From contig DATDFQ010000049.1 of the NCBI GenBank assembly GCA_036522515.1, forward strand, positions 62,001-126,000: a DNA stretch of 64,000 nt, in the 5' to 3' direction. This DNA is from Bacteroidota bacterium (GTDB taxonomy: Bacteria; Bacteroidota; Ignavibacteria; UBA10030; SZUA-254). Positions within the stretch are counted from its first letter, which is position 1. Each line of letters begins with the position of its first letter. The notes below the pieces were generated by a model. The model was given only the letters and a program-made list of their open reading frames with translations. It did not search any database and had not been told where the DNA came from. Both the position numbers and the translations under genes were made by a program. Positions 45,062 to 47,598 of this stretch are shown one piece after another.

Positions 45062-45967
45062 ATGAAGATGACGCACATACTTCGAACGACAATTCTTCTC
45101 CTTTCGCTGTCCCAGCCGGCGTGTCGAACCCCGCGAGGGAATCCACACGGCATTCAGGTGCTCGAGGAATCCGGCGGGAGAAAACTGATGATCGGCGGCC
45201 GGGTCAGGGCGTATGTCGATACGGCGTCGTTGGAATCACGGCTGAGATATGTCTCCGTGATGAATCTTCCGATGAGGTTTTATTCAGCGCCCGGATCTCT
45301 CCTCCTGATCGGCGCGGGAGGCGGCTCGATCGCGAGAAATTACCTGAAGGAGGGCTGGAAGGTGGAGTCGGTTGAACCCGACTCCGCCGTCGCCCGAATC
45401 GCGCGAAGCACGTTCGGGCTCCGGGAGGACGAGGTGAAGATTCGAGTCGGGAGCGCGGGGCAGTTCCTTGCATCCCAGGCAGGCGCGTACGATCTTATCC
45501 TTGAAGATCTTGTCGGTACGCCGGTTCCCGAGGGAGATTTGCTGACGGCCGGCTTTTTCAAGACCGTTCGCACGCACTTGAAAAAAGGAGGAATGTTCGG
45601 AATCGCGCTCGAGTGCGCCGGATGGCGAGATGAGGTTGTCCGGGCCGTCGCTTCGACGCTCGGCGAGGCCTTCCCGAACGTCACCGTCCTTCCGATCGCC
45701 GAACCCCCGAACCGTTTCGGCAGCATCGTGGTGATCGCCTCAGAGAGAGCGCATGATGAACTCGTCAGGGAAGTCGGCCGGAACGAGGGGCTCGACCCGG
45801 AGTGGCGTTTCGGTCCCGGCTACCAGGAGACCCACGCCTGGGACAATCGTTTCGTGATGCAGCCCGATCCCCTGCTGGTCCAGACCGCGGAACAGAACCG
45901 GATCGGAAGAATGTTCGAAACGATCGACGATTCCGCCCGCGCCCAACCCCCGGGGTATCTCCCCTAA
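45062..45967 (+). CDS. Exported protein with spermidine-synthase-like SAM-binding fold
   Basis: Protein of 301 residues. The first 21 residues (THILRTTILLLSLSQPAC) form a signal sequence ending in a Cys, an imperfect lipobox. The body has the Rossmann-methyltransferase core of spermidine-synthase-like proteins: GSLLLIGAGGGSIARNYLKEGW, VESVEPDSAVARIA, YDLILEDLVGTPVPEGDLLT and FKTVRTHLKKGGMFGIAL. SAM-dependent enzymes are normally cytosolic, so an export signal is unusual. Alternatively the segment is an uncleaved inner-membrane anchor. Substrate unknown. It probably starts without a leader. Confidence 0.72.
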   Translation: MKMTHILRTTILLLSLSQPACRTPRGNPHGIQVLEESGGRKLMIGGRVRAYVDTASLESRLRYVSVMNLPMRFYSAPGSLLLIGAGGGSIARNYLKEGWKVESVEPDSAVARIARSTFGLREDEVKIRVGSAGQFLASQAGAYDLILEDLVGTPVPEGDLLTAGFFKTVRTHLKKGGMFGIALECAGWRDEVVRAVASTLGEAFPNVTVLPIAEPPNRFGSIVVIASERAHDELVREVGRNEGLDPEWRFGPGYQETHAWDNRFVMQPDPLLVQTAEQNRIGRMFETIDDSARAQPPGYLP

Positions 45968-45981
45968 AGGCGCCGGGCGCC

Positions 45982-46323
45982 TCACCGCATCGGCTTGATC
46001 TTACCCGTCTCCTCGATCCGGACCGGGTACCCCTCCAGCACCGGAGGGATCTTCTCTTCGAGCTCGCGTGTCTTCCTGACGACCATGACTCCGATACACG
46101 GTTTTCCGTCGTCGAGGGCGCCGACATACACCCCGACTACTCCCGGTAACGCCATCAGCTCCGCGGAATGAGCCTCTTTCACGAGGTTGATATCGCGCCG
46201 GGGAGTCACGCTTCCGGGCCGACCGTCATTGCCGGAGGTCTTGCACCCGGGCGCAAGGTGAAGGATGAATGCGAGTGTGAGGATGGCGCAGAGAACCGTT
46301 GACAGGCGTTCATGATAGTGCAT
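45982..46323 (-). CDS. Small lipoprotein with propeptide-like domain
   Basis: Protein of 113 residues with lipobox LAPGC (signal LSTVLCAILTLAFILHLAPGC). Residues about 45-113 (VKEAHSAELMALPGVVGVYVGALDDGKPC to VRIEETGKIKP) align with the N-terminal domain of the protease lipoprotein encoded upstream: H-S/T-A-x-L-M, G-x-x-x-G, GKI-x-P. It is a stand-alone copy of that domain. A chaperone or inhibitor role for the neighbouring protease is a hypothesis. A strong terminator (46370-46400) separates the two genes. Confidence 0.7.
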   Translation of the reverse strand: MHYHERLSTVLCAILTLAFILHLAPGCKTSGNDGRPGSVTPRRDINLVKEAHSAELMALPGVVGVYVGALDDGKPCIGVMVVRKTRELEEKIPPVLEGYPVRIEETGKIKPMR

Positions 46324-46369
46324 GTTGAAATTCCGTCGAATGGGACGCGACCTTCGGGTTGCGCGGAAT

Positions 46370-46400
46370 AAAAAACCCGTCCCGCGCGAGGCGGGACGGG
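46370..46400 (-). terminator. Intrinsic terminator after the protease gene
   Basis: Perfect 10-bp GC-rich stem CCCGTCCCGC (46376-46385) / GCGGGACGGG (46391-46400) with a 5-base loop. On the minus strand it is followed by TTTTTT. It lies 44 bases past the stop of the protease gene. Confidence 0.88.
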
Positions 46401-46443
46401 CGATTTCAGACCGGCTCCGGCGTGGTAACGGAACCGCTACTTG

Positions 46444-47598
46444 TTACTGCCCCACCATCCCGGCGGTTCCGCCGGCGTTCGAACCGATCCAGCTCAGGAC
46501 ATCGCCGATCGGGTTGGCGATCGCCGTCGTCGAGCTGCCGGCGTAGAGAAGGCCGACCGCTTTCGGATTCGTCGACACGTCCTGGACCATGAGCGAGCCG
46601 GAATCTCCGGAGATCAGGAAACTCTGGCCGCGGTTTTTATTTTTTATGACGATCTGCCCGGTGAACGTCTTCGTGAAAGCCGCTCCGCCCGCGCACTCGT
46701 TATCGTATGCCACACTGATGGTGGCGTTCAGCCCGCTGACGCTGCTCCGGGTCAACCCGCTCGAGCGTCCGCTCTTCTTCACGGCCTGCCCGATGGATGC
46801 GCCGACCGTCGTCGCGGAAATTGTTCCGACTTCCAGGATCGCTCCGTCGGTGCGAACCATTCCCGGGATGACCGCGGCATATCCGACATCGACATTTGCG
46901 CCCGGCAGGCTCCCCGAACCCGAAAGCGTTGCGACATTCTGCGCGTTCGCGGCGTTGCAGGAAATGTCGACCATGCCCGGCTGAATGACCGGGTCTCCTG
47001 CGGTGGCCACCCTGTTGTTGCCGCCGGCGACGATATCGCCCCAGAACACGTGATAGTTACTCAGGACATACTGAGTGGTGCCGACATGGACCAAAGACCC
47101 GAGCGTGCCGCTGCAGCAATATCCGTTCGCGAGGTCATACCTCCATCCGCCGGAGGTGCCCAGTTGCACCGGCGGCGTTTGTTTCACCTGGTGGTCGGCG
47201 ACGCCGGCAAGAGGTCTGATCTTACCGACAACTTCGCTCACCACGGGTACTCCCTCCAGGTTTCGGGGGAGCGCATAGGTTCCGCGGGCATTCTTCGAAT
47301 CGACCGGGTTTTCCAAAAGGACAAGCACTGCGATCCTTCCGTCTTCCGTCAGGCCTGTTGCGGTCCCGATGACATTCTTATCGGCCATCAAGGCCGCCGT
47401 ATGACGGTCCTGAACAAGCATGACAGACTTCACCTGGGGATTTTCCTTGCTCAGGGTTTCGGCAGTCTGTGTGGTGATGGGTCCGCTTGAGCTATCCTGC
47501 TTTTCGGCGCACCCTCCCAGGAACATTGTCCCGAGCAGAGCAAACACGATGAGAAGAACAAACGGAAGCATCGTCGAGCGATGCGAACGAATTGTCAT
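46444..47598 (-). CDS. Lipoprotein with trypsin-like (S1) serine protease domain
   Basis: Protein of 384 residues with lipobox FLGGC. An N-terminal domain (about 50-130) matching the downstream small lipoprotein is followed by a chymotrypsin-fold protease. Candidate triad: His in LSNYHVFWGD, Asp in NVDVGYAAVI, Ser in ISGDSGSLMV (GDSG). CNAANAQNV and NECAGGAAF may form a disulfide. It should act in the periplasm or on the cell surface, resembling bacterial Nal1-like S1 peptidases. A perfect AGGAGG Shine-Dalgarno sequence and a good promoter (47689-47717) drive it. Confidence 0.82.
   Translation of the reverse strand: MTIRSHRSTMLPFVLLIVFALLGTMFLGGCAEKQDSSSGPITTQTAETLSKENPQVKSVMLVQDRHTAALMADKNVIGTATGLTEDGRIAVLVLLENPVDSKNARGTYALPRNLEGVPVVSEVVGKIRPLAGVADHQVKQTPPVQLGTSGGWRYDLANGYCCSGTLGSLVHVGTTQYVLSNYHVFWGDIVAGGNNRVATAGDPVIQPGMVDISCNAANAQNVATLSGSGSLPGANVDVGYAAVIPGMVRTDGAILEVGTISATTVGASIGQAVKKSGRSSGLTRSSVSGLNATISVAYDNECAGGAAFTKTFTGQIVIKNKNRGQSFLISGDSGSLMVQDVSTNPKAVGLLYAGSSTTAIANPIGDVLSWIGSNAGGTAGMVGQ

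Follow-up and report, generated by a model that had tools for sequence, protein, structure and literature searches.

The window analyzed in this study (the whole stretch of 64,000 nucleotides) contains, side by side on the minus strand, a gene for a NAL1-type serine protease of 384 aa (positions 46444–47598) and a gene for a 113-aa predicted lipoprotein (positions 45982–46323), which is a separately encoded relative of the domain preceding the catalytic part of that protease. Judging from domain architecture and co-occurrence, the small protein is most likely a trans-acting regulator; we give a probability of about 0.45 to the proposal that it acts in trans on the neighboring exported protease, binding it and restraining or regulating its activity.

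The larger protein carries a signal peptide with a lipobox (LGGC) and matches the Pfam family Nal1_C (PF25819; E-value 1.1e-8; 35.1 bits compared to a cut-off of 26.1), as do 42 of its 44 protease homologs. The residues of the predicted catalytic triad, His183 (NYHV), Asp237 (NVDVG) and Ser333 (GDSGS) (columns H155, D209 and S305 in the numbering of the mature protein), are invariant in all 44 homologs and lie in the segment encoding the linker and the trypsin-like domain (46447–47205, minus strand). Upstream of this segment is the attached NAL1_N-type domain (residues 59–131; 47206–47424, minus strand), delimited by alignment, which superposes on NAL1 from residue 91. The nearest solved structure by sequence is rice NAL1 (7y77; E-value 4e-12), followed by glutamyl endopeptidase, streptogrisins and alpha-lytic protease. 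The AlphaFold2 model of the protease (pLDDT 84.8, pTM 0.86) could be superposed on rice NAL1 across both domains (mature residues 25–356 on NAL1 residues 91–446; Z 25.7, 283 residues, rmsd 3.2, 21% identity). On these sequence and model grounds the protein is a NAL1-type serine protease whose H-D-S triad is intact. It has the two-domain architecture of rice NAL1 (PDB 7y77, 8has and 8pmm), but, unlike the rice protein, it is exported as a lipoprotein and a second, separate N-domain is encoded next to its gene.

The small protein possesses a signal peptide and an imperfect lipobox (LAPGC, with the cysteine at position 27) and has no catalytic part. The first-pass annotation, made from the sequence of the window, had proposed that it aligns with the pre-catalytic domain of the protease, and both ORFs were indeed found where it had placed them. 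A two-sequence BLASTP comparison gave 30% identity over 124 residues (E-value 3e-10; signal peptides included). Since this match takes in the leaders, profiles were built for both families. HHalign comparison of 36 stand-alone sequences with 44 protease homologs revealed strong homology (probability 99.2%, E-value 2.5e-19; 31% identity over 78 columns), covering exactly the pre-catalytic domain, without the signal peptide. The four motifs that the annotation had listed as common to both proteins (H-S/T-A-x-L-M, VxGxxxG, LEGxPV and GKIxP) are all situated inside this alignment. By sequence, the two domains are homologous and do not resemble each other by chance.

Neither the small protein of the window nor the 36 stand-alone sequences matched any family in Pfam or NCBIfam searches, and the Pfam NAL1_N family (PF25608) gave no direct match with the 36 stand-alone sequences at E ≤ 1; the same family recognizes only four of the 44 protease homologs, and the protease of the window is not among these. 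The domain was assigned through distant NAL1-like proteases, 13 of 14 of which are matched by NAL1_N: the stand-alone profile matches their N-domain with an E-value of 9.9e-11, and their joint profile in turn matches the part of the NAL1 chain that contains the N-domain. The small lipoprotein is therefore a solitary NAL1_N-type domain (residues 45–112; 45988–46191, minus strand). In its AlphaFold2 model this domain has a predicted alpha-beta-beta-alpha-beta arrangement (pLDDT > 90), and its best PDB match by VIA-align is the N-domain of NAL1 (Z 7.0; 26% identity over 70 residues). The predicted NAL1 N-domain fold is thus supported: the Z value is modest, and the identity and the profile link back it.

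Two other assignments were considered for the small domain. Membership of the MEROPS I9 inhibitors was rejected, since no match with Inhibitor_I9 was obtained for the window protein (E ≤ 10) or for its 36 homologs (E ≤ 1), and the AlphaFold2 model does not contain the first strand of the I9 fold. The top Foldseek match was the pro region of alpha-lytic protease (2pro, 4pro; prob 0.99, E-value 8e-3), which is likewise encoded before a related trypsin-like domain. That pro region, however, is a two-domain, cleaved element encoded in cis, and in VIA-align its similarity to the small domain (Z 6.0, rmsd 5.1, 7% identity) hardly rises over that of unrelated KH-like folds (Z about 5), so that true kinship is not established. 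The same comparison bears on the idea that the stand-alone domain is a folding aid, which helps the catalytic domain to fold outside the cytoplasm. Pro regions of the streptogrisin/alpha-lytic family are folding catalysts, and this family is second only to NAL1 in its similarity to the catalytic domain; the Foldseek match points the same way, and a catalyst could act at less than one molecule per enzyme, in keeping with a terminator upstream of its gene (see below). Apart from the marginal structural match, this explanation has to accommodate the copy of the domain already attached to the protease and the existence of several proteases without a stand-alone protein, and we consider it a serious but less likely alternative to a regulator.

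The first-pass annotation had also suggested that the attached domain is a propeptide. This label is not supported, because the domain is still part of NAL1 in the crystal structures, and the two domains of the window protease fit onto the rice protein as one unit (see above). A propeptide is also ill-suited to proteases that bear the domain at the opposite end: in G700, G661 and G543 (Verrucomicrobiota, the phylum of G103) the protease contains no N-domain and has the domain at its C-terminus instead. Such C-terminally fused NAL1-type proteases are encoded at L146 (1103–2266), L147 (743–1927) and L129 (1495–2514). The fusion to proteases devoid of the N-domain indicates that the domain belongs with the catalytic domain in several arrangements, and a domain that can precede or follow the catalytic part in the same chain, or be supplied in trans, is easier to reconcile with a binding module than with a cleaved N-terminal propeptide. 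Two further variants were observed. In G100, L091 (733–1701) encodes a truncated catalytic domain with GDPGS replacing GDSGS and the domain fused C-terminally, possibly, as far as the sequence goes, a catalytically dead derivative. At L057 (4827–6806) FG-GAP-like repeats extend the protease at its C-terminus, and no stand-alone gene adjoins it.

The distribution of the pair was examined using the protease as the only query, with one genome per species. This analysis identified 29 loci, 28 of them with enough flanking DNA, in MAGs labeled Ignavibacteriales, Chlorobiaceae, KSB1, Calditrichaceae, Zixibacteria, Krumholzibacteria, Chitinivibrionia, Verrucomicrobia, “Deltaproteobacteria” and Methylobacter. 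Mis-binning is possible for some of these MAGs. A stand-alone copy adjoins the protease in 22 of the 28 testable loci, and 21 of these 22 copies are located downstream on the same strand; the remaining one (L051) is divergent, the adjacency having been kept through the inversion. Linkage of the two genes in other genomes, on which the first-pass proposal depended, is therefore the rule, with few exceptions, such as the unlinked copies in G101 and G103.

Similar patterns were observed within single lineages. Among 98 genomes of the order to which the window belongs, 17 contain both genes in adjacent positions, two only the stand-alone gene, two only the protease (G003 and G084, the latter with a downstream copy interrupted near a contig end) and 77 neither, so that 17 of about 19 protease carriers have an adjacent stand-alone gene (Fisher p 6e-15, shared ancestry not corrected for). 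Elsewhere in the phylum, families f15 and f27 contain pairs with very different proteases; in f27 (86 genomes) both genes are present and adjacent in nine cases, the protease occurs by itself in one, the stand-alone gene by itself in none, and neither is found in 76 (Fisher p 2e-11, again with shared ancestry not corrected for). The same stand-alone partner is thus found even with NAL1-type proteases that have diverged strongly. In two genomes (G008 and G013; L032 and L033) two tandem protease copies are followed by a single stand-alone gene.

No stand-alone copy was found near the protease in six of the 28 loci. In G101 and G103 it is present elsewhere in the genome, unlinked to the protease; in G100 the domain is borne by the C-terminus of a separate protein, with no stand-alone gene near the protease; and in G098, G099 and G102 no stand-alone copy was found genome-wide. 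Beyond these six loci, the genomes G104 and G003 likewise yielded a protease and no stand-alone copy; some of the five genomes without a copy are incomplete MAGs. Conversely, G066 and G040 encode stand-alone proteins lacking an export signal (L076, 3219–3602, and L077, 2914–3261), and no Nal1_C protease was detected in either genome; these copies must either function independently or have a partner that was missed. On contig 54 of the genome containing the window (G000; L005, 1498–1899), a predicted lipoprotein encoded beside two RNA-binding-protein-like ORFs, with no protease nearby, contains a third copy of the domain, which is diverged. The existence of unpaired proteases and orphan small proteins indicates that not every species needs the partner.

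In most loci outside Verrucomicrobiota a third, convergent gene, spermidine-synthase-like, lies just downstream of the pair, usually in the form of a fused MFS/spermidine synthase (NF037959); the window contains a short form without the membrane part (45062–45967, plus strand). This gene accompanies the pair in MAGs labeled Ignavibacteria, KSB1, Calditrichota, Fibrobacterota, Zixibacteria and Krumholzibacteria, and it was also seen at L045 and L048, where the small gene is missing, and at L051, where the small gene is inverted. It was not found beside the f27 and Verrucomicrobial pairs, which argues that the protease and the small protein form the core unit.

These observations are relevant to the explanation that the two genes are linked yet functionally independent, as parts of a horizontally moved cluster in which the small lipoprotein has its function elsewhere or serves the protease as a substrate. 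The orphan copies in G040, G066 and on contig 54 of G000 would be expected in such a case, as would the purifying selection acting on the unlinked copies of G101 and G103 (dN/dS 0.10) and the co-travel of the third gene. Against this, the partner is found with protease subtypes that differ greatly from one another and have differing surroundings (f27, f15, f5 and Verrucomicrobiota) and the domain also occurs fused to the C-terminus of proteases, and we regard independence as improbable. An origin of the pair from phages or plasmids was likewise discarded: a plasmid search with the small protein gave no match, and the single phage homolog, a distant NAL1-type protease encoded in the 484-kb record of a large uncultured phage (LR756508.1; L150, 2971–3978), lacks a stand-alone neighbor.

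A tree of 40 stand-alone, 45 attached and three C-terminal domains (72 columns) placed the stand-alone sequences in at most two groups, never among the attached domains. A single stand-alone clade was not rejected (p-AU 0.45; 0.25 with the first tree); the deep forks are uncertain because of the low number of columns. Since the tree parts all stand-alone from all attached domains, a recent local duplication was rejected. By sequence, the stand-alone domain split from the attached one long ago, and the pair is ancient. The stand-alone genes are under purifying selection (dN/dS 0.06–0.39 in close pairs, in a set that leaves out the protease row L133/L134), and their products are at least as conserved as the attached N-domains (mean pairwise identity of 48% and 44%, respectively, in the same 31 genomes). 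On the dN/dS values and the identities, a degenerate pseudogene copy was rejected.

Of the two parts of the protease, it is the attached N-domain whose divergence the small domain follows more closely (Mantel r 0.81, compared to 0.65 for the catalytic domain), although common ancestry and linkage also enter into these coefficients, and leader sequence was included in the N-region compared. Such a difference would be expected if two N-type domains touch each other, as they would were the small protein a structural subunit or substrate adaptor, i.e. an extra N-domain in a NAL1-like oligomer that exerts no inhibition. NAL1 does retain the N-domain in its structures, several PDB entries of which comprise six identical NAL1 chains. 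Such a subunit would fix the geometry of the complex, anchor it to a membrane or present substrates. We give this reading the same probability as a folding aid and consider it less likely than a regulator.

The intergenic region contains an intrinsic terminator (46369–46401, minus strand), which follows the protease gene and precedes the stand-alone gene, as the first-pass annotation had noted. It is composed of a hairpin (46375–46401, minus strand) with an 11-bp stem, GCCCGTCCCGC-ctcgc-GCGGGACGGGT, and a U-tract, TTTTTATT. A terminator-like hairpin is present at the same place in 17 of 33 pairs scanned. The promoter scan of the small gene returned a single sigma-70-like match, which overlaps the start codon and was not accepted as a promoter of its own; the promoter type of the host lies outside that scan. 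With a separate gene behind a terminator, the amount of the small protein could be set independently of that of the protease. This arrangement is not expected if inhibitor and enzyme must match one to one.

According to a simple heuristic, export signals are present in 30 of 37 stand-alone proteins and 43 of 46 proteases. Seven of the 37 stand-alone proteins have no recognizable signal; at L046, L051, L063 and L053 such a protein adjoins an exported protease, and in G023 and G028 the signal is absent from both partners. Both proteins of the window are probably envelope lipoproteins, as predicted from their signals, the lipobox of the small one being imperfect.

Action in trans on the protease is supported by the homology of the two domains, their long separation, the retention of the small gene beside diverse protease subtypes, the lack of catalytic residues, the purifying selection and an export signal that is usually like that of the protease. 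In the regulatory reading, the small protein would dock on the catalytic domain, beside the attached N-domain or replacing it, or alternatively on the attached N-domain itself, and once docked would restrain or switch protease activity at the cell envelope.

For subtilisin-like and some other proteases, regulators that are stand-alone copies of a protease domain are known. Small stand-alone homologs of a protease N-terminal domain include the I9 members Pleurotus proteinase A inhibitor 1, yeast peptidase B inhibitor and Arabidopsis SPI-1. A parallel that extends to the gene arrangement is SUB1-ProM of Plasmodium, the product of a conserved, propeptide-like stand-alone gene adjoining the subtilisin genes at a syntenic locus and a potent inhibitor of SUB1 (PMC6993865). 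It is chiefly because of such propeptide-like inhibitors that a restraining regulator is favored over a folding aid or a subunit. SUB1-ProM and the I9 inhibitors go with proteases of the subtilisin clan and have another domain fold, whereas the window protease is trypsin-like, and an inhibitory role is proposed here by analogy; the analogy is weak, since NAL1 keeps its homologous domain permanently.

No report of a stand-alone regulator for the NAL1 family was found in the open-access literature, which misses most subscription papers. We would also entertain, at somewhat under even odds, the wider proposal that the NAL1-type proteases of bacteria work as two-gene systems, with a separately expressed copy of their N-domain setting their activity. 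If this holds, no earlier trans-acting regulator would be known for the family, and a regulatory function would be implied for the N-domain of plant NAL1 as well. The NAL1 gene shapes leaf width and yield in rice, and the conserved pair, together with its natural fusion, offers a route to the role of the N-domain in a simple bacterial system. The analysis also names a previously unannotated family of small lipoproteins present in many phyla.

Within this family, Cys76 of the window protein (46096–46098), located in the second predicted strand, is kept in nearly all stand-alone sequences of the main group, and its equivalent is absent from the attached N-domains. A conserved lone cysteine in an extracytoplasmic protein could form an intermolecular disulfide. 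The f2 members contain a second cysteine close by (GECxxxPC).
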